From Citricoccus muralis (lineage in GTDB: Bacteria > Actinomycetota > Actinomycetes > Actinomycetales > Micrococcaceae): a stretch of 64,000 nt of DNA. A program made the position numbers and the translations under genes. Location: the NCBI RefSeq assembly GCF_029637705.1, contig NZ_CP121252.1, forward strand, positions 2,356,001 through 2,420,000. The letters run 5' to 3'. Shown piece after piece: positions 41,643 to 54,955 of this stretch. Within the stretch, counting starts at the first letter, position 1, and each line of letters begins with the position of its first letter. Under the pieces are notes generated by a model, which had not been told where the DNA came from, searched no databases, and worked only from the letters and a program-made list of their open reading frames with translations.

Positions 41643-42434
41643 TCATTCGTGGAGGCTCGGGAAATCCTGTTCCCCCAGCTCCTGGAGCCGGTGGCTGATT
41701 CCTTCGGCGGCGTGGAGCAGCGGCTCCTGGTAGCGCTCCAATTCGGGGTCCAGTCGGTAGTTGACCAGACCCACTGCGGCGTGCGCCACTCCGTCCACCA
41801 GCACCGGGGCCGCGATCGAGGACGATCCGAGCACGTACTCCTGCGCGCTGGTGGCATAGCCTCGGCGCCGGATCTCCTCCAGCCCACGGTCCAAACGCTG
41901 TGGATCAACCTCGGTATGGGGAGTGAAGGGCTGTAGTGGCTGGGAAAGAATCTGTTCCTGGACCGAGGATTCGCTGAAGGCCAGGATGACTTTGCCGAGG
42001 CCCGTGGCATGCAAAGGAATGCGTGCACCGATGCGGCTCTGCAAGGGGACAGATTCCTCATGGGTCAGTTTCTCGATGTAGAGTGCGGTCAGATCATCGG
42101 GAATCGCGAACTGCACCGTCTGCCGGGTCTTGTACTGCAGGTTGAGCAAAAACGGCAGCGCGGTCTCTCGGAGCCGACCGTGCAGGGGGGTCAGCAATCC
42201 CATCTCCCAGAGGCGCATGCCGAGGCGATATCGCCCCTCCGGGGATCGCTCAACGAATCCTCCGGCCCCCAGCTCGCCCAAGAGCCTGAAGGTCGTGGCG
42301 ACCGGCAAGCCGGTGCTCCGCGACACTTCGCTGATGGTCATGGAGGGAGCTGAGACGCTGAATTGGCTCAGAATCAGCAGGGCCCGGGCCACGACTGTCT
42401 TAGGCAAACCTGGCGAGGCTGACAAGAATGGCAT
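41643..42434 (-). CDS. IclR family transcriptional regulator (second of a tandem pair)
   Basis: A 263-residue IclR-type regulator. The N-terminal winged helix covers about residues 1-75 (TISEVSRSTGLPVATTFRLLGELGAGGFVER), and the C-terminal effector-binding domain covers about residues 80-250 (LYIEKLTHEESVPLQSRIG, HATGLGKVILAFSE, RRRGYATSAQEYVLGSSSIAAPV). The start at 42434 overlaps the stop of the other IclR gene (TGATG) and has AAGGCGG upstream. IclR proteins commonly control aromatic, acid or ketone catabolic operons; this pair faces the dikinase-carboxylase operon and probably controls it. Confidence 0.9.
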   Translation of the reverse strand: MPFLSASPGLPKTVVARALLILSQFSVSAPSMTISEVSRSTGLPVATTFRLLGELGAGGFVERSPEGRYRLGMRLWEMGLLTPLHGRLRETALPFLLNLQYKTRQTVQFAIPDDLTALYIEKLTHEESVPLQSRIGARIPLHATGLGKVILAFSESSVQEQILSQPLQPFTPHTEVDPQRLDRGLEEIRRRGYATSAQEYVLGSSSIAAPVLVDGVAHAAVGLVNYRLDPELERYQEPLLHAAEGISHRLQELGEQDFPSLHE

Positions 42435-43207
42435 CAGGTCCGCCTTTCGTTCAGGAGCGCAGACACGCTTCGTGCTGTCATCTGCAAGATAGCGATCCGA
42501 AACTCGTCCTGTCGAGAGGACGCTTCGGCAGAGCGGTGGTATCGGAGGGACATCGACATCGGCGGCCGGTTCTGCACATCCAGTGGAACCGCGTACTCTA
42601 CGGCATCTCCGGATTCCAGGATGACGTAGCGCCGATCGCGTGAGGCCTCGATTCTCTGTTCCAGCGTCTGCAGGCTGCGTTGGGTCAGCCTGAGCCGTCG
42701 CCGCGACTCGGCGGAGAGCTGGCCTGCCACCGCGATGCCACCGGCGGTGCCCTCCAAGGAGCACATCTCCCCCAGCCCATTCTGCGCCGACATGGACGCC
42801 ACCAGGATCTCGTCAACACACATCGCGGCTCCATCGAAGTAGCTGTACACCCGCACATCGGAATTCGTCCGAGAGCTCAGGGGCATCAGCAATAGGCGAG
42901 CCCCATAGCCGATGACGTCATGGCTCTGGGAGAGGATCCCCATACGCCACATCAGCGGGCCGATGCTGTAGGCGCCCTCGTTGTTCCGCACGACTGCGCC
43001 CATCCCCTCCAGCTTGTGGAGCAGCCGATGGACGGTCGCGACCGGAAGGCTGGTCCGTCGCGAGATGGCTGACAGCGTCAAGGTCCGGTGCTGAGCGTCG
43101 AATGCCAACAGGACGGTGAAGACGCGCTCAGCCACAGATTTGGAGCCAACTGTCTCCAGCGTGGATCGACTGGCAGCGCCTGCCGAAGGCTCTCGTGACG
43201 TGCTCAT
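42434..43207 (-). CDS. IclR family transcriptional regulator (first of a tandem pair)
   Basis: A 257-residue IclR-type regulator. The helix-turn-helix region (LTLSAISRRTSLPVATVHRLLHKLEGMGAVVR) lies near residues 48-80. The C-terminal domain is less typical: it has CVDEILVASMSAQNGLGEMC and GGIAVAGQLSA rather than the usual HATGLGKA-type motif, so its ligand pocket probably differs from that of the second regulator. The ATG at 43207 is chosen for the AGGGG site upstream; a longer in-frame start would run into the shared promoter. It diverges from the dikinase operon across a 167-bp gap that holds an inverted repeat and a CRP-like site. Confidence 0.87.
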   Translation of the reverse strand: MSTSREPSAGAASRSTLETVGSKSVAERVFTVLLAFDAQHRTLTLSAISRRTSLPVATVHRLLHKLEGMGAVVRNNEGAYSIGPLMWRMGILSQSHDVIGYGARLLLMPLSSRTNSDVRVYSYFDGAAMCVDEILVASMSAQNGLGEMCSLEGTAGGIAVAGQLSAESRRRLRLTQRSLQTLEQRIEASRDRRYVILESGDAVEYAVPLDVQNRPPMSMSLRYHRSAEASSRQDEFRIAILQMTARSVSALLNERRT

Positions 43208-43240
43208 ACTGCCCCTGCCTCTCGGTGTCCCCTCAGAATA

Positions 43241-43261
43241 GTTTTCCACTCTTTGAAAAAC
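43241..43261. promoter_or_regulatory. Candidate IclR operator (imperfect inverted repeat)
   Basis: GTTTTC (43241-43246) and GAAAAAC (43255-43261) form an imperfect inverted repeat with eight bases between the arms, close to the reverse-strand IclR gene. IclR-family operators are often short AT-rich palindromes of this kind. Assignment to either regulator is inference. Confidence 0.4.
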
Positions 43262-43266
43262 AAGCT

Positions 43267-43282
43267 GGTGATGCAGATCACA
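43267..43282. promoter_or_regulatory. CRP/GlxR-type operator upstream of the dikinase operon
   Basis: GGTGA-TGCAGA-TCACA matches TGTGA-N6-TCACA with one mismatch. It lies 93 bases before the operon's first start codon and 60 bases from the IclR start, in the divergent promoter region. It mirrors the perfect site at 12204-12219. Confidence 0.55.
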
Positions 43283-43374
43283 TTTTCTTAGGCTCGTGGT
43301 TGTCTTCATCTCTTAGGTCGCGGTCTGTTGATCACACAGCCGCAGGCCACCATCTCCGACCCGAAGGACTCATC

Positions 43375-45240
43375 ATGACTCAGGCAGATATGAGCCAGGA
43401 CACGCGCCCTGCCACCGAGAAAAGCTTCCCGAATCCCTATGAGATCGCCACGCCACCGGGGGCTGAAGGCTGGGAGGAGATGTATTCCTACCACAACCGA
43501 TTCCTCGAGACCCGACGGGCCGAGGATTCGCAGAAGACCTGGTTCCGCAACTCCCTACACTTCCCCGAAGTCTCATACCCCTTCGACCACGCCCTCATCG
43601 ATGGATCGTTCACGGGCACCGGAGTGACCAACACCCGCGTCTTCGCCCTGCCGCCGGCGCTGGGTCTAGATGTGAGAGTCATCAACGGCTACACCTACAT
43701 GTCCACGCTTCCCGCTCCGGACGAGGAGACCCAGGCCCGCCGCGCCGAAGAATTCTCCCAGCGTGCTGGGTACTACTTCCAGAACTGGGACACCCTCTAC
43801 AAGGAATGGGAATCCCGGGTGACCGCAGCCATCCGGGCGGTCGTGGACATCGAGGTTCCGGAACTCAGCGAGTTTGAGCCCATTGAAAAGGTGCTCGAAG
43901 ACCGCGGCCCCACCCAGGGCAACCTCTTCTTGGCCGGCTATCACCGGCTGGTGGAAGCGGGCGACCAGATCTGGACGCTGCATTCGGAATTCCTGAACCT
44001 CGGTTACGCCGCATACCTGCAGTTCCTGACGCTGTGCAAGGACCATTTCCCGGAGATCGACGACCAGACGGTCTCCCGGATGGTCTCCGGAATCGACGTG
44101 CTACTGTTCCGTCCCGACGACGAACTGCGCAATCTCGCCCGCCTCGCAGAAGAGCTCGGCGTCTCCGACGCCATCAAGTCCGCCACTTCCGAGGAGGAAC
44201 TGAACACGGCGCTCGAGCCGGAAGAAGCAGGCCGCACGTGGCTGGCCGCACTGGAAGAAGCCAAAGACCCGTGGTTCAACTTCTCCTACGGATCCGGTAT
44301 GTATCACTCCCACCGAAGCTGGATTGATGACATGTCGCTACCCATCCGGGCCATCGGCGACTATATCGACCAGCTGCGAGCCGGCGACGACCTCACCCGC
44401 CCCCTGGACCGGCTACAGGCCGAGCGCGACGAGATCGTGGATCGGTACCGTGAGCTGCTCGACGAGGACGACCGTCCCGTCTTCGACGAAGCCCTGGGGC
44501 TGGCCCGCACCGTCTTCCCCTACGTGGAGAACCACAACTTCTACGTCGAGCACTGGTTCTTGACCGGTTTCTGGAACAAGGTCCGCGAATTCAGTGCAAA
44601 ATTCGTTGAATGGGGCTTCTGGGATGATGTCGAGGACATTTTCTTCCTCCGTCGCGCCGAGGTCGAAGAGGCCGTCTATGACTTGCAGATGGCCTGGGGC
44701 GCCGGCGGCACCGCACAGGGCGGCTACTACTGGCCGGCCATCATCCAGCGACGCCGCGAGATCTACCAGGCGCTCGACGCCTGGACGCCTCCGCCGGCGC
44801 TGGGCCCCGTTCCGGGGGATGTCAGCGAACCTCTGACGATCATGCTCTGGGGCATCACCCCGGAAACCGTCGATCGCTGGCTCAAGGCGCAGGACGGCGG
44901 CTCGTCCTCGACCGTCTTGGAGGGGTTCGCCGGGTCTCCTGGCGTGACCGAAGGACGGGCGCGCGTCGTGCTGCGCCCGGACGAGCTCGACACCGTGCAA
45001 GACGGCGAGATCCTCGTCGCCCCGGTGACGAGCCCGAGCTGGACCCCGGTCTTCGGCCGCATCCGTGGAGCGGTCTCCGACATCGGCGGCATCATGTGCC
45101 ACGCCGCCATTGTGTCCCGCGAGTACGAGCTGCCCGCCGTGGTCGGCGTCGGCTTCGGCACATCCAATATCAAGACCGGCCAGCTGATCCGCGTCGATGG
45201 CGATGCTGGCACCGTCACGATCTTGGAGGAACAGAAGTGA
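43375..45240 (+). CDS. Dikinase large subunit with phosphohistidine domain (phenylphosphate-synthase-like)
   Basis: A 621-residue protein. The C-terminal 100 residues form the PEP-utiliser swivelling domain with the phosphorylatable histidine in GGIMCHAAIVSREYELPAVVG. The first 500 residues do not resemble the ATP-grasp or PEP-binding barrel; they are rich in aromatic residues (YFQNWDTLYKEWESRV, FNFSYGSGMYHSHRSWIDDM, HNFYVEHWFLTGFW) and probably bind the acceptor. This layout, with the ATP-binding half in the next gene, matches subunit 1 of phenylphosphate synthase (about 70 kDa) and parallels rifampin phosphotransferase. Predicted role: transfer of a phosphoryl group from the His to a non-pyruvate acceptor. 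The ATG at 43375 has AAGGA upstream. First gene of an eight-gene operon. Confidence 0.82.
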   Translation: MTQADMSQDTRPATEKSFPNPYEIATPPGAEGWEEMYSYHNRFLETRRAEDSQKTWFRNSLHFPEVSYPFDHALIDGSFTGTGVTNTRVFALPPALGLDVRVINGYTYMSTLPAPDEETQARRAEEFSQRAGYYFQNWDTLYKEWESRVTAAIRAVVDIEVPELSEFEPIEKVLEDRGPTQGNLFLAGYHRLVEAGDQIWTLHSEFLNLGYAAYLQFLTLCKDHFPEIDDQTVSRMVSGIDVLLFRPDDELRNLARLAEELGVSDAIKSATSEEELNTALEPEEAGRTWLAALEEAKDPWFNFSYGSGMYHSHRSWIDDMSLPIRAIGDYIDQLRAGDDLTRPLDRLQAERDEIVDRYRELLDEDDRPVFDEALGLARTVFPYVENHNFYVEHWFLTGFWNKVREFSAKFVEWGFWDDVEDIFFLRRAEVEEAVYDLQMAWGAGGTAQGGYYWPAIIQRRREIYQALDAWTPPPALGPVPGDVSEPLTIMLWGITPETVDRWLKAQDGGSSSTVLEGFAGSPGVTEGRARVVLRPDELDTVQDGEILVAPVTSPSWTPVFGRIRGAVSDIGGIMCHAAIVSREYELPAVVGVGFGTSNIKTGQLIRVDGDAGTVTILEEQK

Positions 45241-46349
45241 TGTCACGATACGTCTGCCCCTTCGCTGAGCTGGGCGCGGGAGACCGAGAATCCGTGGGCG
45301 GCAAGTGCGCCAGCCTGGGAGAAATGGTCAACGCCGGCTTGCCCGTCCCGGACGGCTTCGCCGTGACCGTGGAAGCGTTCGAAGACTTCCGTGACGCGTC
45401 CGATCTCAGGACCGAGCTGCAGACCCTGGTCCAGAGCATGCAGGAGGCCCGTCCACAGCAGCTGCAGCAGGCGCATGAGCAGGCCGTGGAGTTGATCCTG
45501 CACCGGCCCCTGCCCGAGGAGATGGAACGACAGATCTCAGAGGCCTACACCACGTTGGTCCAGAACACGGCGCAACGTCGCGGCCTGTCCGAGGCCGATG
45601 CCGTGAAGATTCCCGTGGCCGTCAGATCATCCGCCACCGATGAGGACGGGGACGCCGCGTCCTTCGCCGGGCAGCAGGAAACGTTCTTGTGGGTCAGCGG
45701 TGCTGACGCGGTGCTGGAGAAGATCCGGGAATGCTGGGCCAGTCTGTACACGCCGCAGGCCATCTCCTACCGCGCCTCCATGGACGCCACGGAGGGAGCT
45801 TTGGCCTCGCGGATCTCCGTGGCCGTCCAGCTCATGGCCGATGCCGACGTCGCCGGCGTGACCTTCACCGTTAGCCCGACCACCGGTGACCGTTCCGTGA
45901 TTGCCATCAATGCCAGCTACGGGCTCGGGCAGTCCGTCGTGTCGGGGGAAGTCACCCCGGACGAGTACTGGATCTCAAAGATCGGCCCGACGATCAAGGA
46001 ATCCAGAATCGCGGACAAAGCCCAGGAGTACGTTCCCAACAGCGACGGGACCGGAATCGAATTGCGCGACGTCGACGCCGAACGCCGTTCGCAGGCCTGC
46101 CTCTCGGACGACGAGGTGATTCAGCTCGCGGAGATCGCCGTCGCCGTAGAAAAGCATTACGGGACGCCACAGGATATCGAATGGGCCTTGGAGCGCAACG
46201 CGGACGGAACGAACAACGTCATGCTGCTGCAGTCTCGCCCGGAGACGAATTGGAAGAAGCGCAAGGACGAACAGGCCACCCGCAAGAAGGAACCGAACGC
46301 GACGACCGGACTCATCTCCTACGTCTCATCTGCATCGAAGGGAGCCTGA
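45240..46349 (+). CDS. Dikinase small subunit, PEP-synthase-type ATP-grasp domain
   Basis: A 369-residue protein equivalent to the N-terminal ATP-binding third of PEP synthase or pyruvate phosphate dikinase. GGKCASLGEMVNAGLPVPDGF, PVAVRSSATDEDGDAASFAGQ, NASYGLGQSVVSGEVTPDEY and DIEWALER are the family blocks in order. It would use ATP to phosphorylate the histidine on the large subunit, releasing AMP and phosphate by the dikinase mechanism. The start overlaps the large-subunit stop (TGATG), so the two are made together. The size (about 40 kDa) fits phenylphosphate synthase subunit 2. The Lys-rich tail after residue 340 is not conserved in PEP synthase. Confidence 0.85.
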   Translation: MSRYVCPFAELGAGDRESVGGKCASLGEMVNAGLPVPDGFAVTVEAFEDFRDASDLRTELQTLVQSMQEARPQQLQQAHEQAVELILHRPLPEEMERQISEAYTTLVQNTAQRRGLSEADAVKIPVAVRSSATDEDGDAASFAGQQETFLWVSGADAVLEKIRECWASLYTPQAISYRASMDATEGALASRISVAVQLMADADVAGVTFTVSPTTGDRSVIAINASYGLGQSVVSGEVTPDEYWISKIGPTIKESRIADKAQEYVPNSDGTGIELRDVDAERRSQACLSDDEVIQLAEIAVAVEKHYGTPQDIEWALERNADGTNNVMLLQSRPETNWKKRKDEQATRKKEPNATTGLISYVSSASKGA

Positions 46350-46351
46350 TC

Positions 46352-46864
46352 ATGGCCGAGATCACCACACCGACCTGGGACGAGCTGGTGAAGCTGGTCG
46401 CGGAGCTCGACGGATCGAACTTTGAGAACGTCTCGATCGACTACGGCGAGGTGTCCCTGCGGATGTCCCGGGATGAGCTTCAGCCCGATGCACCGGCACG
46501 GAATCGGGCGGAGACACCGACACCCGCGCCAGCGGATCCTGCTCCGGTCCCGACCTCCAACGCCGCGGCCGCCGCCCCGTCCGCTCACGACACCGAGACG
46601 GCCTCGGCTGCTTCCGAGGGAACGGCCGTCTCTTCACCGATGGTGGGGGTCTTCTACCGTTCCCCCTCCCCTGACGCGCCGCCCTTCGTGACGGAAGGCG
46701 ACCGGGTCGAGGCGGACTCGACGGTCGGCATCATCGAGGTCATGAAGCTGATGAACCCCGTTCAGGCGGGTGTCGCCGGTGTGGTGTCATCCTTCGCGGC
46801 GGCCGACGCGCAGGCGGTCGAATACGGCCAGGATCTGCTGCACATCATCCCGGAGACGTCATGA
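46352..46864 (+). CDS. Biotin carboxyl carrier protein
   Basis: A 170-residue BCCP. The N-terminal part (WDELVKLVAELDGSNFENVS) resembles the AccB N-terminus, a Pro/Ala-rich linker spans residues about 45-88, and the biotinyl domain begins SSPMVGVFYRSPSPDAPPF and carries the biotin lysine in IIEVMKLMN (Lys132). It would carry CO2 between the biotin carboxylase and the carboxyltransferase encoded next. It starts two bases after the dikinase stop and overlaps the carboxylase gene by four bases. Confidence 0.93.
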   Translation: MAEITTPTWDELVKLVAELDGSNFENVSIDYGEVSLRMSRDELQPDAPARNRAETPTPAPADPAPVPTSNAAAAAPSAHDTETASAASEGTAVSSPMVGVFYRSPSPDAPPFVTEGDRVEADSTVGIIEVMKLMNPVQAGVAGVVSSFAAADAQAVEYGQDLLHIIPETS

Positions 46865-48264
46865 GCCAGCCGCAGAAAGCGCCCACTGTTCTGGTGGCCA
46901 ATCGCGGTGAGATCGCCGTCCGCATCATCGAGGCGGCCCACCGCATCGGCGCTCGGGCGGTGCTGGCCGTCAGCGAGGCCGACCGCGATTCGGTCGGGGC
47001 CCAGCTGGCGGACGAAACCGTCGTCATCGGCCCGCCTCAGGCCGCCCAGTCCTATCTACGGCCTGAATTCGTGGCACAGGCGGCCCTGCAGTCCGGCGCC
47101 GACGTGGTCCATCCCGGCTACGGGTTCCTCAGCGAACAGCCCGAGCTGACCGAGATGCTGGAGGCCGAGGGCATCGCCTTCGCAGGGCCGCGGGCCGAGA
47201 CGCTGCGTGCCGTCGGGGACAAATCCAGTGCCCGCCAGGTCGCCATCGCCGCCGGTGTGCCGGTCGCCGCCGCCGAGCCGGTGCTCGATCCACACGATGC
47301 CGCCCAGCTCCGCTCCCTCGGCGACGCCGTGGGCTACCCGTTGCTGGTCAAAGCGGTCTACGGGGGCGGCGGTCGCGGCATCCGGCTGGCACCCGACCCC
47401 GAAACTCTCGTGCAGCTGGCTCCGCAGGCCGCCGCGGAAGCCGTCGCCGCCTTCGGCAACGGCGACCTCTACGTCGAGCGCTACTACGGGGCCGCCCGGC
47501 ACGTGGAGGTCCAGGTCTTCGGCGACGGCGACGGCGGGGTGCGGATCTTCGGCGACCGAGACTGCTCGGTGCAGCGTCGCCACCAGAAGCTCATCGAGGA
47601 GTGCCCGGCACCCGGGCTCTCGGAAGACCGCCGTCGAGTGTTGCATGACTCGTCTCGGGCCCTGGTGCGCGAGTTGCGCTATCGCGGCGCAGGGACCGTT
47701 GAGTTCATGGTGGACACGCAGTCAGAGGACATCATCTTCCTTGAGGTCAACGCTCGCATCCAGGTGGAGCATCCCGTCACGGAAGAGGCTTTCGGCATTG
47801 ATCTGGTGGCCGCCCAGCTGCGTTTGGCGCTGGGGCTCGACCCACAGTTGCCGGAGATGTCGGCCATCCCGGCGGCGACCGCCATCGAGGTCCGCATCAA
47901 CGCCGAGGACCCCGACCTGGATTTCCGTCCAGCGCCGGGACGGATTGCCTCGGTGTCCTGGCCCCGAGGTCCCGGGATCCGTGTGGATACGCTTCTGCGG
48001 GATGACTACACGTTCCTGCCGTACTACGACAGCCTGATGGCGAAAATGATCGTGAGAGCCCATGACCGCTCCGCCGCCGTCGACGCCTTGCTCTCCGCCG
48101 TTCGACGCACCCGCATCGAGGGGGTGGCCACCACGCTGCCAGTGCACGAGCAGGTGCTGGATCACCCCGATTTCCGGGCCGGAGCTGTGCCCACCACCTG
48201 GTTCGGCCCGTTCTGGGACGAGCACGCCCCGGCCACCTCAGACTCCCGAAAGGCTGTCCGATGA
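46861..48264 (+). CDS. Biotin carboxylase subunit (AccC-like)
   Basis: A 467-residue ATP-grasp enzyme that carboxylates biotin using ATP and bicarbonate. VANRGEIAVRIIEAAHRIGA begins the biotin-carboxylase N-domain, KAVYGGGGRGIRL is the glycine-rich ATP loop, and EVNARIQVEHPVTEE holds the conserved catalytic Arg and Glu. It lacks a biotinyl or carboxyltransferase domain, so it depends on the separate neighbours. The start overlaps the BCCP stop and the stop overlaps the carboxyltransferase start, indicating a stoichiometric complex. It is probably dedicated to this operon rather than to fatty-acid synthesis. Confidence 0.93.
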   Translation: MSQPQKAPTVLVANRGEIAVRIIEAAHRIGARAVLAVSEADRDSVGAQLADETVVIGPPQAAQSYLRPEFVAQAALQSGADVVHPGYGFLSEQPELTEMLEAEGIAFAGPRAETLRAVGDKSSARQVAIAAGVPVAAAEPVLDPHDAAQLRSLGDAVGYPLLVKAVYGGGGRGIRLAPDPETLVQLAPQAAAEAVAAFGNGDLYVERYYGAARHVEVQVFGDGDGGVRIFGDRDCSVQRRHQKLIEECPAPGLSEDRRRVLHDSSRALVRELRYRGAGTVEFMVDTQSEDIIFLEVNARIQVEHPVTEEAFGIDLVAAQLRLALGLDPQLPEMSAIPAATAIEVRINAEDPDLDFRPAPGRIASVSWPRGPGIRVDTLLRDDYTFLPYYDSLMAKMIVRAHDRSAAVDALLSAVRRTRIEGVATTLPVHEQVLDHPDFRAGAVPTTWFGPFWDEHAPATSDSRKAVR

Positions 48265-49826
48265 CCACCACCGACCCCGTACCCGTGCGGAAGCCCATCC
48301 GATTCGTCGACACCTCCCTGCGCGACGGAAACCAGTCGCTGTGGGGCGCCACCGGCCTGACGACCGGCATGGTCGAAGCCCTCGGCCCTGATCTGGCCGA
48401 CGTCGGGTTCGAGGCGATCGATTTCACCAGCTCCACCAACCTGCTCATGGGTGCCAAAACCCACCGGGAAGATCCATGGGAGCGGATATCGCGCATGCAC
48501 GCTGCCACCGGGGACCTGCGGCTGTCGGCGATCACCACCGGCATGCGCTTCATGTCCTGGGAACGGGCCTCGGAGACCGTGATGCGGTTGGCGCTGCGGC
48601 TGATGGCCCGCCACGGGCTGTCCAGGATCCAGATCGCGGACCCGATGAATGACTCCGACGCCGTCACCACCGTCGCCCGGTGGGCGAAAGAGGAAGGGTT
48701 TGCCCAGGTCGTGGCGGCCACCACCTTCACCGAGTCCCCGGTGCATACCGACGCCAGCTACGTCCAGGCTGCCCGTCAGTTCACCGCCGATGCGCACATC
48801 GACGCCGTCTATCTCAAAGACCCCGGAGGGCTGTTGACCCGGGACCGCGTGGCCAGCCTGGTGCCGGCGCTGCGCGAGGTCGTCACCGGCAAGCCTCTGG
48901 AACTGCACGGACACTGCACCACCGGCGAAGCTCCGCAGAACTATGTCCTGGCCGCCGAGCTCGGGGTGGACGCCCTGCACACCGGAATCGGGTTCCTGTC
49001 TAACGGCACCGCCCAGCCGGGTCTGGTCTCCGTGTTGGATAACCTGGAGGCTGCCGGGATCCCCCACGACGTCGACCGGGACGCGCTAAGCCGCGTCACG
49101 GCCATCATCGAGCGCATCGCTTCCTCTCAGGGGCTGCCCGCTGGCGAGGTGATGCCTTACGATCTGGCCCCGCACATCCACCAGGTGCCGGGTGGGATGA
49201 TGGGCACGCTCAAGCGCCAGCTCCAGGAGCTGAAGATGGAGTCGGTGCTGCCGGCGGTCATTGCGGAATCGGGCCGAGTGCGGGCCGATCTCGGCTACCC
49301 CATCATGGTGACCCCCTTCAGCCAGTTTGTCGGCAGCCAGGCGCTGATGAACGTGCTGTCCGTCCAAGGCGGACAGGAGCGCTACAGTCGAATCCCGGAC
49401 GAGGTCGTCCGCTTCGTTCTCGGACACTTCGGCACCCCGGCGGGCGAGATCGACCCGGCCGTGCGAGAAAAGGTCGAGTCCCTGTCCCGGGCCAAGGAGC
49501 TGCACTTCGAGCCGGCCCACAGCGGCACACTCGAGGAGATTCGAGACGAGCAGAGCCGCAAGGCCGGGCGTGATCTGGCGGATGAGGAGCTGCTGTTGCG
49601 CCTAGTGATGGCGCCGAATGTTCTGGAGTCCGTCCGGTCAGCCGGACCGGCACCGACGTGGAGCAGCGCAGCTACCGCTGGCCGGGTCGACTCCCTGGAG
49701 GGTTTCATTCGGGCGGTCAACACCCTGCCGCGTTGGAAGTCCTTGCATGTACGCCGCGGGAGCCAGGAGGTGCGCCTCCGGCGGACATCCCCGACCACGC
49801 CCACCCGCCACGAATCCGGAAGGTGA
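48261..49826 (+). CDS. Biotin-dependent carboxyltransferase, pyruvate carboxylase/OadA/5S type
   Basis: A 521-residue TIM-barrel carboxyltransferase. RFVDTSLRDGNQSLWGATGL matches the R-D-x-x-Q-S-L active-site motif, YLKDPGGLLT carries the lysine that is carboxylated in pyruvate carboxylase, and LHGHCTTG supplies the metal-binding H-x-H. HQVPGGMMGTLKRQL, RADLGYPIMVTPFSQFVGSQ and the downstream helical region follow the OadA/5S pattern. This class transfers CO2 from carboxybiotin to an enolisable carbonyl compound, normally pyruvate. The operon context (dikinase, acetoacetyl-CoA synthetase) suggests a ketone or its enol phosphate instead. The last 40 residues are Arg/Ser/Thr-rich and not conserved. 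Confidence 0.87.
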   Translation: MTTTDPVPVRKPIRFVDTSLRDGNQSLWGATGLTTGMVEALGPDLADVGFEAIDFTSSTNLLMGAKTHREDPWERISRMHAATGDLRLSAITTGMRFMSWERASETVMRLALRLMARHGLSRIQIADPMNDSDAVTTVARWAKEEGFAQVVAATTFTESPVHTDASYVQAARQFTADAHIDAVYLKDPGGLLTRDRVASLVPALREVVTGKPLELHGHCTTGEAPQNYVLAAELGVDALHTGIGFLSNGTAQPGLVSVLDNLEAAGIPHDVDRDALSRVTAIIERIASSQGLPAGEVMPYDLAPHIHQVPGGMMGTLKRQLQELKMESVLPAVIAESGRVRADLGYPIMVTPFSQFVGSQALMNVLSVQGGQERYSRIPDEVVRFVLGHFGTPAGEIDPAVREKVESLSRAKELHFEPAHSGTLEEIRDEQSRKAGRDLADEELLLRLVMAPNVLESVRSAGPAPTWSSAATAGRVDSLEGFIRAVNTLPRWKSLHVRRGSQEVRLRRTSPTTPTRHESGR

Positions 49827-49833
49827 CGCCGTC

Positions 49834-50760
49834 ATGACCACGCCCCTGAACACACCGCCCAGCTCGTCAGCGATCACGCAGGATCTGGCCGATCGGATCT
49901 CCCGCGCACATGGCGTCATGTTTGATATCGACGGCTGCCTGTTGCTGGCCGACCAGCCCGGTGGTTACGGCGGTACCCTGCTGCCCGGAGCCGCGCAGGC
50001 ACTGAAGGCCGTGGGCGCCACCAGACGCCGGTTCGTGTGCTTCACCAACGGGTCATTCCAGACGCCATCCGCGATCGCCGGGACCCTGCGGGAACTCGGG
50101 CTCGAGGTCACCGATGAACAGGTGATGACCCCGGCCGTCGTCGCGGCCGAAACCATCGCCCGGCGCTACCCGGGCGGACGCGTGCTCGCGTTCGGCGGCC
50201 CCGGGGTCATCGAGACGTTCACCACCCACGGGGTGGAGCTGGTCGCCGTTGAGGAGGCAATCGCCGGTCGAGCCGGTGACGTCGCCGCCGTCGTGATCGG
50301 CTGGGACACCGAGTTCGGCCGGTCCAAGATCGTGGCCGCGGCCGAGGCCGTCCTGGCCGGCGCCACGCTGTACGCCACCTCCGACGCTCCCACGTTCGCT
50401 TCCCACCACCGGCTGAACGTCGGCGTCTCCGGTTTCATCGCCGCCGGCCTCTCCCACGTCACCGGTCACCCCTACCGGGTGCTCGGCAAGCCCTCCGCGG
50501 AAGCCTTCGAGGCGATCTGCGCCCGCACCGGTGCCACCGCGGAAGAACTGTTGATCGTCGGAGACGACCTGCAGCTGGAAACCTCGATGGCGGTTCGACA
50601 CGGTGCAACCGCGGTGCTGATGACGACCGGGACGCACTCGCGCCAGGAGGCCGAACATGCCAATCCCGAACGGCGGCCCGATCTGATCCTGGACTCACTT
50701 GACGAACTCGCCCACCTGTTGCGCGCTGGTACAACACCCAGCCGGACGGAGAACTCATGA
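49834..50760 (+). CDS. HAD-IIA (NagD-like) phosphatase
   Basis: A 308-residue HAD hydrolase. Motif I is VMFDIDGCLLL (nucleophile D of D-x-D), motif II FTNGSFQTP, motif III the lysine in LGKPSAEAF, and motif IV the acidic pair in IVGDDLQLE. The cap between motifs II and III follows the IIA pattern of NagD and p-nitrophenylphosphatases. It begins seven bases after the carboxyltransferase stop and overlaps aacS by four bases. In this operon it may hydrolyse an organophosphate made by the dikinase, either as a pathway step or to clear a dead-end product. Confidence 0.88.
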   Translation: MTTPLNTPPSSSAITQDLADRISRAHGVMFDIDGCLLLADQPGGYGGTLLPGAAQALKAVGATRRRFVCFTNGSFQTPSAIAGTLRELGLEVTDEQVMTPAVVAAETIARRYPGGRVLAFGGPGVIETFTTHGVELVAVEEAIAGRAGDVAAVVIGWDTEFGRSKIVAAAEAVLAGATLYATSDAPTFASHHRLNVGVSGFIAAGLSHVTGHPYRVLGKPSAEAFEAICARTGATAEELLIVGDDLQLETSMAVRHGATAVLMTTGTHSRQEAEHANPERRPDLILDSLDELAHLLRAGTTPSRTENS

Positions 50761-52754
50761 GCACCACCGATACGTCACAGCCCCCGATGACGTGGAGCCC
50801 CTCAGCAGAGCAGATTGACGAGGCCCGCCTGACGGATTTCATGCGGTGGGTCGAAACCCACCGCGGAGTCGCCCTCTCGGACTACCGCGAGGTGTGGTCC
50901 TGGTCGGTGTCGGAGCTGTCTGACTTCTGGGACTCGGTGCGACAGTACTTCCAGATCATCGGTGATGGTTTCGACGGTCCCGCTCTGGCCGATGAAACGA
51001 TGCCCGGGGCCACCTGGTACCCCGGTGCGACCCTGAACTTCGCCGAAAACGTCCTGCGCCACGCGAATGATCCCGAGCTGGTCCATGTGCCCGCCATCGT
51101 CGACATCGACGAGCAGGACACCCGCCACGATATCACCTGGGGCCAGCTCGCCGGCCGCGTCGGGGCCCTGTCGCAGCAGCTGCGGTCTCTCGGCGTCCGC
51201 CCGGGTGACCGTGTGGCGGCCGTGTTGCCGAACATCCCGGAAGCGATCATCGGCCTGCTTGCAGCGGCCTCCATCGGAGCGGTGTGGACGATCAACTCGC
51301 CCGATTTGTCCGCCCAGGCCACCCTGGACCGATTAGCGCAGCTGGAGCCGACGGTCCTCATTGCCGCCGACGGGTACCAATTCAACGGCAAGGATTTCGA
51401 ACGGCTCGAGCATCTTGCGGACGTCCGTGCGGGACTGCCAAGCGTCAAACACACCATCGTGGTCAACAAACTCAACTTAGAATTATCTGCTGACGATCTC
51501 GGCTACGAAGTCCTGGATTTTGCTGGGCTCACGGCGTCCCCCGTCGACCCTGAGTTTCTCCGCGTGCCATTCAGCCATCCGCTGTGGATCTTGTTCTCCT
51601 CCGGTACCACCGGGGCGCCCAAGGGCATCGTGCACAGCCACGGCGGCATGGCGCTGGAGGCCTCGAAGGGGTGCGGACTCAATCAGGACATGGGCCCCGG
51701 CGACCTCTACTACGTCGTCGCGAACACGTCGTGGATGGTGTGGAATACCCTCGTCAACAACCTCATGGTCGGCGCATCTGTCGTCACGTACGCGGGTTCT
51801 CCGACCTATCAGCGCAAGGACCGACAGTTCCACATCCTCGCTCACACGGGAGCCACCATGTTCGCCACCGGTGCCGCCTACCTGAGTCTGGTGCAGAAGG
51901 CCGGAGTGTATCCCGGACAGCAGTGGGATCTGTCTCGGCTTCGAGCCATTCTCTCCACCGGTTCGCCCCTGCCCGAATCGACCTGGAAGTGGGTGCACGA
52001 TGAGGTGAAGTCCGACGTGCATCTGGGATCAGATACCGGCGGCACGGACATCTGCTCGGGATTCATCGGTTCCAATCCGCTGGAGCCGGTTCGACTCGGA
52101 TACCTCCAAGGGCCTCTGCTCGGTGTAGCGGTCGAAGCACGGAGCGAGGCCGGAGATCCGGTGATCAACGAGGTGGGCGACCTGGTTGTCACGCGCCCCA
52201 TGCCCTCCATGCCTGTGTCCTTCTGGGGTGACGCGGACGGGTCCCGCTACCGTAGCTCCTACTTCGACAAATTCCCCGGAGATTGGACTCAAGGTGACTG
52301 GATCACCGAAACCGACTGGGGCGGATTCGTCGTGCATGGCCGCTCCGACGCAACGCTCAACCGACAGGGTGTCCGGTTGGGCAGCGCCGACATCTACAAC
52401 GCCGTCCAACACGTCCAGGAGGTCGCAGACTCACTGGTGATTGGCGTCGAGGAGTCGGACGGCGGATATTACATGCCGCTGTTCGTGGTGCTGAAAGAGG
52501 GGGCGACTCTTTCGGAGGAGCTGATCACGCGGATCGCCACCACCATCAGGTCTCATACCAGCGCTCGGCATGTGCCCGACACGGTCCTGGAGGCGCCAGC
52601 TATTCCCGTTACCCATGCGGGCAAGAAGATCGAGGTACCGATCAAGCGGCTGTTCTTGGGCCACCGCCCGGAGGACGTGATTAACGCGAGTTCCCTGTCC
52701 AACCCAGAAGCCCTCGACTGGTTCATCCGCCAAGCCCGGCAACCTCGAGATTGA
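50757..52754 (+). CDS. aacS: Acetoacetyl-CoA synthetase (acetoacetate:CoA ligase)
   Basis: A 665-residue AMP-forming ligase. The adenylation P-loop is FSSGTTGAPKGIVHSHGG, the characteristic GSDTGGTDICSGFIG block follows, and the catalytic lysine near the end lies in VTHAGKKIEVPIKRLF, an AacS-type C-terminus. The N-terminal TFTWSP-like block and W-Y-P-G-A-T-L-N-F-A-E-N segment also match AacS. It would convert acetoacetate or a similar 3-oxoacid to its CoA ester, ready for thiolysis. It overlaps the phosphatase gene upstream. Its presence is the strongest clue that the carboxylase product is a 3-oxoacid. Confidence 0.92.
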   Translation: MSTTDTSQPPMTWSPSAEQIDEARLTDFMRWVETHRGVALSDYREVWSWSVSELSDFWDSVRQYFQIIGDGFDGPALADETMPGATWYPGATLNFAENVLRHANDPELVHVPAIVDIDEQDTRHDITWGQLAGRVGALSQQLRSLGVRPGDRVAAVLPNIPEAIIGLLAAASIGAVWTINSPDLSAQATLDRLAQLEPTVLIAADGYQFNGKDFERLEHLADVRAGLPSVKHTIVVNKLNLELSADDLGYEVLDFAGLTASPVDPEFLRVPFSHPLWILFSSGTTGAPKGIVHSHGGMALEASKGCGLNQDMGPGDLYYVVANTSWMVWNTLVNNLMVGASVVTYAGSPTYQRKDRQFHILAHTGATMFATGAAYLSLVQKAGVYPGQQWDLSRLRAILSTGSPLPESTWKWVHDEVKSDVHLGSDTGGTDICSGFIGSNPLEPVRLGYLQGPLLGVAVEARSEAGDPVINEVGDLVVTRPMPSMPVSFWGDADGSRYRSSYFDKFPGDWTQGDWITETDWGGFVVHGRSDATLNRQGVRLGSADIYNAVQHVQEVADSLVIGVEESDGGYYMPLFVVLKEGATLSEELITRIATTIRSHTSARHVPDTVLEAPAIPVTHAGKKIEVPIKRLFLGHRPEDVINASSLSNPEALDWFIRQARQPRD

Positions 52755-52782
52755 TGACTCCCCACGCTGAAGAGGACACCCT

Positions 52783-53532
52783 ATGACACCTGAGATTTCG
52801 GAGGAGATCGCCACACGCATGGCCGTGGACCCGCAAGCCCACGCGGAGGACCCACGTGCGATGGCCTTTGAAACGGAATTCCCCGTCCGGCCCATACCTG
52901 CCCGCGGTCCGGTTGCCACGGGACCGATTTCTCTGACTCCCGCCACTGGTGATGACCGGCTGTGGAGAGCTATCGAGCCGGAGCTGCGAGCACGGGCCAA
53001 CGACATTCACCTGCCCATCTCCGCGGCCTATGCCGCCCGATTGTGCGATGCCTACCCGCAGGCCGACCGCGAGCTCGTCATGGTGGCGATCATCCTCCAT
53101 GACACCGGATGGGCTCATGTGGACCAGTCACGGGTGATCTCCGAAGGTTTCAGGTCCGGGGGCGACTGGAGGAAGCAGCTCATTCGCTTCGAGCACGAAG
53201 TCGAAGGATGCAAAGTCGCCCGCCGCGTCCTGCCCAGCCTGGGATATGATCAGGCGTTCGTCGAGCGCGTCTGCACGATCATCGACGGACATGACACTCG
53301 CCTCGTTGCCTATTCCCTCGAGGACGCGCTGGTCAGGGACGCCGACCGGCTCTGGCGCTTCGACGGACCCGGGATCGCGTTATCCACTCAATGGACGGGA
53401 TTGGACGTCACGACGTACCTGGATGACGTGGAACGCCGGTTCGTGCCCGAATTGATCACTGAGGCAGCGGTGCAGATGGCCCGCCAAGACTTGGATCGCC
53501 ATCAAGCACTTCTGCGAACGCGCCTGAGCTAG
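52783..53532 (+). CDS. HD-domain hydrolase
   Basis: A 249-residue protein with an HD phosphohydrolase domain covering about residues 60-200. The metal motif lies in VAIILHDTGWAHVD, a further His in IIDGHDTRLVAYSL, and the final Asp in RDADRLWRF. The N-terminal 50 residues are Pro-rich and not conserved. It follows aacS by 28 bases with AGAGGACACCCT before the ATG and is probably the last operon gene. HD enzymes hydrolyse nucleotides or phosphate esters; a role in controlling the dikinase or clearing a phosphorylated intermediate is inference only. Confidence 0.8.
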   Translation: MTPEISEEIATRMAVDPQAHAEDPRAMAFETEFPVRPIPARGPVATGPISLTPATGDDRLWRAIEPELRARANDIHLPISAAYAARLCDAYPQADRELVMVAIILHDTGWAHVDQSRVISEGFRSGGDWRKQLIRFEHEVEGCKVARRVLPSLGYDQAFVERVCTIIDGHDTRLVAYSLEDALVRDADRLWRFDGPGIALSTQWTGLDVTTYLDDVERRFVPELITEAAVQMARQDLDRHQALLRTRLS

Positions 53533-53848: not shown

Positions 53849-54365
53849 GGTGCCTCATCGTCAAGTCCCCGGGAAATGATTCCTCGTGCCTCATGGAAAA
53901 GTCCCCGCGAAACGGTGTTGTGGTTAGGCGCTACGGGCTCGGCGTTGATCGATCTTGATCCATTCCGCGTCGGGCATGGCCGCAGCGGCCGCGTATTCCA
54001 GTTCGCGTTCTAGCCGTCGGGTGGGTTCTTTCGCGTTCTCGATCAATCGGTGCTGGATCGAGGTGATCTTACGAGCGATCTCAACGACGTTTAGTGAGGC
54101 TTTATACGCGGCGAGCTCGGCTTCTTGGGCCGGGCTAAGCACTCCAGCGGCTAAGAGCCGGTGATACGGCGATAAGGGCTTGTCGTAGACCCGTTTCCGG
54201 CGGCCAACCGCATCAGTGGTGTATCCGATGGGTTTCTTCGTGGGGGTGTAGTAATTCAGCCGGTCACACACCAATGGCCATAACTGATTCAACAGCTCAC
54301 GTTGATGAGGGGTGTCGTACCGGTAGTAGAACCCGTACCGGCGCACGAGATGGTTGTTCTTCGAC
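53849..54365 (-). mobile_element. Truncated IS element (3-prime end only), copy 1
   Basis: The left boundary carries two ~24-bp repeats of the type GTGCCTCAT-N-AAGTCCCCG (53849 onward and 53885 onward), the same terminal motif that begins the IS copy at 62.8 kb. Between these repeats and 54365 lies the 3-prime third of the transposase gene. Over about 235 bases it differs from the other copy at only a handful of positions by eye. The 5-prime part is missing and the break point abuts a 27-bp perfect inverted repeat. Confidence 0.8.
53924..54365 (-). pseudogene. Transposase C-terminal fragment
   Basis: The reverse strand encodes SKNNHLVRRYGFYYRYDTPH, then RELLNQLWPLVCDRLNYYTP, TTDAVGRRKRVYDKPLSPYH and a C-terminal helical tail ending IDQRRARSA. 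It matches the end of the integrase-core transposase of the second IS copy from the catalytic Glu region onward; the two catalytic Asp residues lie in the lost part. An open frame continues from the inverted repeat into this fragment, but the first dozen residues are not transposase. It is non-functional. Confidence 0.82.
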
Positions 54366-54430
54366 TTGAACCGTCCCTGGTTCTGTGCCGCTTCTATGCG
54401 GGGAGCGGCACAGAACCAGGGACGGTTCAA
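54366..54430. repeat. 27-bp perfect inverted repeat at the IS break point
   Basis: Arms at 54366-54392 and 54404-54430 are perfect complements (TTGAACCGTCCCTGG...CCAGGGACGGTTCAA) around an 11-nt loop. The repeat sits exactly between the truncated transposase and the IclR remnant. It could be the end of another element or a fold-back scar from the deletion. It lacks a U-tract on either side, so a terminator role is less likely. Confidence 0.75.
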
Positions 54431-54482
54431 AGCGTCGACAACGTCGTTTAGGTAACCTGACCCAGATTGAATACGAACTAGT

Positions 54483-54955
54483 TCACCACAAAGCCGTCGC
54501 CTGGCGGCATCAACCCCGGGGTCAACTCAACCTTCAGCAGTCTCTTCATCGACGGCGTGGAGTCCACCCGCGCGCTCCGGGCAAGCCCGCGAGTTGGCGT
54601 GCGAATGTCTGACCACGCCACGGCGGGCGGGAAAATCCAGGTGGCTCATCTGGATCAGAAGGAACTGATCGATCTGTTCCCAGTGGGTTTGAAACCACTC
54701 ACCTCGCATACCGAAACTGATCTGCAGGCGTTATTCAAAGAGCTCAAACGATGCCGGGACCGAGGCTATGCCCTTTCTCGCGAAGAGAGCACCGAAGGCA
54801 TCTCAGCGATAAGCGTTCCCATACAGAACTCCCACCAGCGAACGGTGGCCGCACTCAGCGTGGTGGCTCCGTCTTCCCGGCTACCTCACACCAGATTTAA
54901 CCCAATGATCCGCATGCTCGCTGAGGTCGCAGCTACCGTGCGCTCAAGTATCTAA
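54483..54955 (+). pseudogene. IclR-family regulator remnant (C-terminal effector domain)
   Basis: The open frame begins after a TAG at 54480 and reads FTTKPSPGGINPGVNSTFSS, then LFIDGVESTRALRASPRVGV, HATAGGKIQVAHLDQKELIDLF, RCRDRGYALSREESTEGISA, VAALSVVAPSSRLPHTRF and RMLAEVAATVRSSI. This is the order of an IclR effector-binding domain. The winged-helix domain and proper start are missing; upstream lies the inverted repeat and IS fragment. It is likely the victim of the IS rearrangement. A GTG at 54557 could start a shorter product but would lack a DNA-binding domain. Confidence 0.65.

Follow-up and report, generated by a model that had tools for sequence, protein, structure and literature searches.

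The closest described relatives of the locus treated here are the Hpe (hydroxyphenylethanone) operons, whose pathway phosphorylates an aromatic ketone derived from lignin, carboxylates it by means of a biotin enzyme and cleaves it to 4-hydroxybenzoate. The hpe operon of Rhodococcus rhodochrous GD02, hpeHICBADEF, was published together with the activities of its enzymes (PNAS 2022, PMC9618137). The one-ATP, biotin-dependent carboxylation of a phosphorylated ketone and the dephosphorylation were shown for the enzymes of this strain, and no carboxylation of unphosphorylated 4-hydroxyacetophenone (HAP) or acetovanillone (AV) by HpeCBA could be detected (PMC9618137). The GD02 kinase, characterised further in 2025, phosphorylates phenols and thereby converts ATP to AMP (JBC 2025, PMC12167813). 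CoA ligation and retro-Claisen cleavage are literature proposals; the growth of a Rhodococcus that had received the full set of eight GD02 genes supports them (PMC13101465). In a Rhodococcus host, genes one to six of the operon of Actinomadura macra brought about the conversion of HAP, AV and acetosyringone (PMC13101465, 2026). Here, an eight-gene operon of Citricoccus muralis is compared with these systems. It occupies positions 43375-53532 on the plus strand of a stretch of 64,000 nucleotides of contig NZ_CP121252.1 (the window) and is, with a probability of about 0.93, a further copy of the Hpe pathway for 4-hydroxyphenyl methyl ketones, most likely HAP.

All eight open reading frames (ORFs) were confirmed by Pfam and NCBIfam, as were the same-strand orientation and the families that an earlier note on this DNA had given for them. 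In Table 1 of the GD02 study, hpeB is named as the carboxyltransferase and hpeA as the biotin carboxylase, with masses of 57.4 kDa for HpeA and 49.3 kDa for HpeB (PMC9618137). These masses seem to fit the reverse naming, as does the order of biotin carboxyl carrier protein (BCCP), biotin carboxylase (BC) and carboxyltransferase (CT) in the window, and the two window genes are therefore labelled BC and CT:

43375..45240, + strand: hpeH, hydroxyphenylethanone kinase, substrate-binding and swivel (phospho-His) subunit; PEP-utilisers mobile domain; 79% identical to A. macra and 84% to Arthrobacter sp. C2; Hpe clade; Cys-His576
45240..46349, + strand: hpeI, ATP-grasp kinase subunit; PPDK_N; 67% to the GD02 HpeI structure 9GOJ
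46352..46864, + strand: hpeC, BCCP; TIGR00531; biotin site EVMKL; 45-53% to relatives
46861..48264, + strand: BC subunit of phosphophenylethanone carboxylase; Biotin_carb_N, CPSase_L_D2, Biotin_carb_C; 73% to A. macra
48261..49826, + strand: CT subunit of phosphophenylethanone carboxylase; HMGL-like and PYC_OADA (Pfam); 65% to A. macra, 74% to Arthrobacter sp. C2; metal, Lys and His motifs (RDGNQ, KDPGG, HGH)
49834..50760, + strand: hpeD, HAD-IIA phosphatase for the carboxylated phospho-ketone; Hydrolase_6, Hydrolase_like; DIDG motif; 61% to A. macra HpeD
50757..52754, + strand: hpeE, hydroxyphenyl-beta-ketopropionyl-CoA synthetase (acetoacetate-CoA ligase family); TIGR01217 at 751 bits, above cut-off; 70% to A. 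macra HpeE
52783..53532, + strand: creD-like HD-domain phosphohydrolase in the place of hpeF; HD and GHD motifs; 62-72% to Micrococcaceae HD genes

The likely start codons of hpeC and hpeD are at 46352 and 49834. The earlier description of the genes as mostly overlapping by 1-4 bases holds for four of the seven junctions (1 bp at hpeH/hpeI; 4 bp each at hpeC/BC, BC/CT and hpeD/hpeE); the other three are gaps of 2 bp (hpeI/hpeC), 7 bp (CT/hpeD) and 28 bp (hpeE/HD gene), the last of which makes the HD gene the least tightly joined member of the operon.

Match to the Hpe operons of other actinobacteria

When plasmids were searched with the carboxyltransferase (tblastn), a 66% identical protein was found in Rhodococcus sp. 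JS3073, within a cluster of the same seven genes (genes 1-7, hpeH to hpeE) in the same order; the last gene of that cluster encodes an amidohydrolase. The order of genes 1-7 is common to Rhodococcus, Arthrobacter, Cryobacterium, Actinomadura and Acidimicrobiaceae, and because it recurs across these groups the arrangement is far beyond chance. The cluster of A. macra NBRC 14102 is syntenic with the window over genes 1-7 and both upstream IclR genes, and its seven products are 79, 65, 45, 73, 65, 61 and 70% identical to those of the window. Arthrobacter sp. C2 is closer than A. macra, with genes 1-7 at 53-84%. The comparison with GD02 was made via A. macra, JS3073 and the structure of GD02 HpeI, GD02 HpeH lying outside the data sets. 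Over 368 residues, window HpeI shares 67% identity with this structure (PDB 9GOJ), to which HpeI of JS3073 is 97% identical.

The kinase falls in the same place by phylogeny. In a midpoint-rooted tree of 45 HpeH-type proteins, window HpeH lies in nested groups of 2, 10 and 14 rows, each supported at 100/100 and composed solely of kinases from Hpe-type clusters; the group of 10 includes the A. macra and Rhodococcus proteins. The cre-linked kinases form a separate group of 13 rows (100/100), and a long-branch warning for this tree concerns other groups, not the place of window HpeH. Immediately before its catalytic His, HpeH has a Cys, where CreH and phenylphosphate synthase have a Ser (PMC12167813). 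Window HpeH and 13 of 13 other Hpe-clade sequences carry GGIMCHA, and the cre-linked kinases carry GGMMSHA. Because one distant group of Micrococcaceae has CHA too, the Cys by itself is not diagnostic.

The operon combines a two-component dikinase of the HpeHI clade, a three-component carboxylase orthologous to HpeCBA, and HpeD and HpeE, as expected of a member of the Hpe family. Readings of the operon as a phenylphosphate synthase, as a pyruvate/oxaloacetate system and as an acetone pathway were rejected on the evidence of synteny, tree and motif.

Two regulator genes diverge from the operon on its upstream side:

41643..42530, - strand: IclR-family regulator, counterpart of the second upstream IclR gene in relatives; Pfam IclR_C and HTH_IclR; 66, 58 and 56% to its positional counterpart in Arthrobacter sp. 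C2, A. macra and JS3073
42434..43309, - strand: IclR-type HTH regulator, divergent from hpeH; HTH_IclR; 59, 39 and 45% to its positional counterpart in Arthrobacter sp. C2, A. macra and locus L011; start codon uncertain, overlaps the neighbouring regulator ORF

The creD-like gene at the end of the operon

The terminal gene sets the window operon apart. Among 85 related contigs compared, some of them too short to tell, none has an hpe operon that ends with an HD gene. The nearest relatives of the HD protein, 62-72% identical, are from Micrococcaceae, and it is 65% identical to the product of an HD gene sited between an FAD reductase gene and an aldehyde dehydrogenase gene in cre-type operons. 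In those neighbourhoods of the relatives that were read, an FAD-dependent reductase and an aldehyde dehydrogenase flank the HD gene, and a short-chain dehydrogenase/reductase (SDR), a CreHI-type kinase and a P450 are near, the families being judged from sequence. The cre gene set of Corynebacterium glutamicum comprises creC, creD, creE, creF, creG, creH, creI and creJ, of which creD is called a phosphohydrolase. The genes of these relatives have a creE-like gene on one side and a creC-like gene on the other, which is the position of creD, and the HD gene of the window is taken as the counterpart of creD: homology and its relatives' place within the cre-type operons of Micrococcaceae identify it as an orthologue, and C. 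glutamicum CreD is likened to it by description. An alignment-based AlphaFold model of the protein reached a predicted local distance difference test (pLDDT) score of 90 (38 for the single-sequence model) and resembles HD phosphohydrolases such as YpgQ, the closest solved folds, at weak E-values. The protein is probably an auxiliary aryl-phosphate phosphohydrolase that came from a neighbouring 4-cresol (cre) operon. A cre route itself, with its CreHI-clade kinase, CreJEF P450 system and CreG and CreC dehydrogenases, was not recovered: a search of the window's own genome found no second HpeH-type kinase and no close CreJ (best 26-30%).

A possible origin can be read from Arthrobacter sp. C2, in which an IclR gene comes after the hpe operon; creJ, creI, creH, creG and creE are next in line, followed by an HD gene and an hpeF homologue. 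Downstream of the window operon, two features are found:

53924..54430, - strand: ORF with no Pfam match, containing an imperfect palindrome of 65 bp (inverted self-match); at a guess, a remnant of a mobile element
54557..54955, + strand: truncated remnant of an IclR regulator, effector domain only (IclR_C positions 45-171 of 174)

A 49-residue IclR query against the window's own genome gave two weak matches only. The Pfam-less ORF, the palindrome and the truncated IclR (53924-54955) suggest a past rearrangement, and the loss of intervening cre genes would be the simplest story for the order hpe, creD, IclR fragment.

It is conceivable, with odds below even, that a cre operon once present here was deleted and left the creD-like gene behind without a function. 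This would fit the order in Arthrobacter sp. C2, where an IclR gene and cre genes directly follow hpe; in the window, creD and then the IclR fragment come after it. Moreover, HpeD already takes the phosphate off, and a gap of 28 bp precedes the HD gene. However, the ORF is full-length and on the same strand, the gap is short, and all residues conserved in the family are intact. Tentatively, the operon may instead be a working Hpe/Cre hybrid, in which a recruited creD phosphohydrolase alters the handling of aryl phosphates, for example by the rescue of dead-end phosphorylated phenols, and in which the retro-Claisen step has been outsourced to a phenylpropanoid cluster.

Two observations on other genomes concern the same genes. 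The adjacent hpe and cre operons of Arthrobacter sp. C2, with the hpeF homologue after the cre genes, form a natural aromatic-phosphorylation island. A second HD paralogue (about 36-40% identical) stands beside an IclR regulator in Micrococcaceae, near three cre-type clusters and one Hpe-like cluster.

Proposed route and likely substrate

By orthology with the described enzymes, HpeHI would phosphorylate the phenolic hydroxyl of HAP, converting ATP to AMP. HpeC with the BC and CT subunits would carboxylate the acetyl methyl group at the cost of one further ATP, yielding 4-phospho-benzoylacetate; HpeD would take the phosphate off after this carboxylation and HpeE would form the CoA ester. An HpeF/CouO homologue encoded elsewhere could then perform the retro-Claisen cleavage to 4-hydroxybenzoate and acetyl-CoA, and a PobA homologue and the pca genes would lead 4-hydroxybenzoate into the beta-ketoadipate pathway. 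We infer that the window operon performs the same chemistry as its relatives, with HAP as the substrate here, HpeF in trans and the HD protein as an auxiliary phosphatase or a leftover.

The gene for the beta-ketoacyl-CoA hydrolase HpeF (CouO-like) is absent from the window operon. A 62% identical homologue is encoded at G000:C1:2623952-2624830, flanked by SDR-type and acyl-CoA-dehydrogenase-type genes (families judged from sequence), and these surroundings are probably those of a phenylpropanoid (cou-type) cluster. Since hpeF is also missing from the operon in several of the compared loci and in SYK-6 (PMC9618137), it is not taken as a requirement for the core of kinase, carboxylase and phosphatase. 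The PobA homologue (394 bits) lies next to PcaH, which scores above its cut-off, and apparent other pca genes. No match to VanA_C was found in the genome by a search that was positive in C. glutamicum. On these sequence matches, a downstream route through 4-hydroxybenzoate and protocatechuate is present. HAP is regarded as the likely growth substrate because PobA-like, PcaH and HpeF/CouO homologues are present but no VanA; it should be degraded fully, and AV is likely to stop at vanillate unless another demethylase exists.

Some points weigh against the assignment to a HAP-degrading Hpe pathway. At 45-79% identity to the proteins of A. macra and JS3073, those of the window could favour a different ketone. 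To be complete, the route needs a gene some 215 kb distant, within what is probably a phenylpropanoid cluster, and the 394 bits of the PobA homologue fall below the TIGR02360 (NCBIfam) cut-off of 539. It is worth asking whether the operon is tuned to another phenolic ketone, such as AV, acetosyringone, 4-hydroxypropiophenone or a ring-substituted hydroxyacetophenone. The A. macra, GD02 and SYK-6 operons all convert HAP, AV and acetosyringone (PMC13101465), and at 45-84% identity to relatives the specificity may have moved. We nevertheless consider this unlikely, as AV would probably end at vanillate in a genome without VanA_C and the GD02 carboxylase prefers phosphorylated HAP about tenfold (PMC9618137).

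That the HD protein has taken over the function of HpeF, as its site at the end of the operon, occupied by hpeF in A. macra and JS3073, might suggest, is highly doubtful: its 62-72% identical homologues, as far as examined, belong to cre-type operons, where no beta-ketoacyl-CoA is expected, the modelled fold is that of an HD phosphohydrolase, an HpeF homologue is encoded elsewhere in the genome, and in the Arthrobacter sp. C2 region, which has hpe, cre and hpeF, the HD gene is on the cre side.

The earlier note had proposed the carboxylation of acetone or butanone, with an enol phosphate made by the dikinase, biotin-dependent carboxylation and activation of acetoacetate by an AacS-like ligase. 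Its outline survives, in that phosphorylation by a split dikinase, biotin-dependent carboxylation of a ketone methyl group and conversion of the 3-oxoacid to the CoA ester would all take place; acetone and the enol phosphate do not, as orthology points to a 4-hydroxyphenyl ketone (HAP, possibly AV) and the orthologous kinase puts the phosphate on a phenolic hydroxyl. Gene 7 does score above the acetoacetate-CoA ligase cut-off (TIGR01217) and the carboxyltransferase is of the OadA type, yet acetone can be practically discarded, given that the same seven families in the same arrangement have been characterised as Hpe, that GD02 HpeCBA showed no detectable activity on unphosphorylated HAP or AV, that the orthologous kinase acts on phenols and that the genome holds the 4-hydroxybenzoate/protocatechuate route. 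The literature, when searched, yielded nothing relevant on a biotin-dependent acetone carboxylase accompanied by genes that resemble PEP synthase. The combination of modules for which no described pathway had been known to the earlier note is that of the Hpe/Acv pathway, described in 2022 (PMC9618137) with further studies in 2025 and 2026 (PMC12167813, PMC13101465), and a claimed unknown acetone pathway is thereby resolved as a known aromatic one.

Related clusters and known systems

In 2022, the complete Hpe pathway was reported from just four genomes besides GD02. Close homologues of the carboxyltransferase are encoded at about 25 actinobacterial loci, many of which have the greater part of the cluster, and this suggests that the pathway is commoner in actinobacteria than the count of 2022. 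The window adds a genome of 3.1 Mb from the family to which Arthrobacter belongs and provides another operon for lignin-valorisation work. The meeting of hpe and cre, two known phosphorylation-first routes for phenolics, points to an exchange of parts.

Several related clusters differ in their kinase. Ten loci have Hpe-like carboxylase genes with no adjacent kinase of their own, and CreHI-type kinase and HD genes lie within about 10 kb, mostly on the opposite strand, which suggests that the kinase is shared between the two pathways there. Seven others (five of Microbacteriaceae/Aurantimicrobium type, two Thermomicrobium-like) have hpeH with no hpeI detected between hpeH and hpeC; their ATP-grasp subunit may come from elsewhere, or another phosphate donor may be used. 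Twenty Proteobacterial Hpe-like cassettes encode BCCP, BC, CT, a HAD phosphatase and often a CoA ligase. No HpeHI was present in the stretch examined, and a Tm-1-like/UPF0261 ATP-binding protein (PF06792 and PF23189) is encoded near; one such copy is on plasmid pBAR1 of Sphingomonas bisphenolicum. The retention of the phosphatase raises the possibility that UPF0261 stands in for the dikinase in these cassettes, a possible function for this uncharacterised family.

The acetone carboxylase Acx (AcxABC) and the acetophenone carboxylase Apc have in common with the route proposed here that a ketone is carboxylated at the expense of ATP. No hydantoinase-like domains of the kind found in AcxABC and ApcABCDE were detected by Pfam and NCBIfam among the eight proteins. 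Acx is not known to be homologous to HpeCBA. Apc is reported to be no homologue of it (PMC9618137). The C. glutamicum cre operon carries P450 and dehydrogenase genes that the window operon lacks, and its CreHI is a paralogous phenol kinase in a clade separate from that of the window. Two further systems can be likened to the window operon by description only. The 4-hydroxyacetophenone carboxylase XccBCA of Aromatoleum aromaticum EbN1 has a homologous biotin carboxylase and is reported to be clustered with hpeHI homologues but serves an anaerobic ethylphenol route, and acvABCDEF of Sphingobium SYK-6 encodes a homologous and syntenous kinase, carboxylase and phosphatase, with VceA/VceB used in the absence of hpeE and hpeF homologues (PMC9618137). 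The A. macra operon differs from that of the window in its terminal gene, which is hpeF (64% to JS3073 HpeF) rather than the HD gene. The GD02 operon likewise ends with hpeF, whereas that of the window ends with the creD-like gene in a genome that has its HpeF homologue elsewhere and no vanA; the two share the families and arrangement of genes 1-7, two upstream regulator genes and the Cys-His phospho-site of HpeH.

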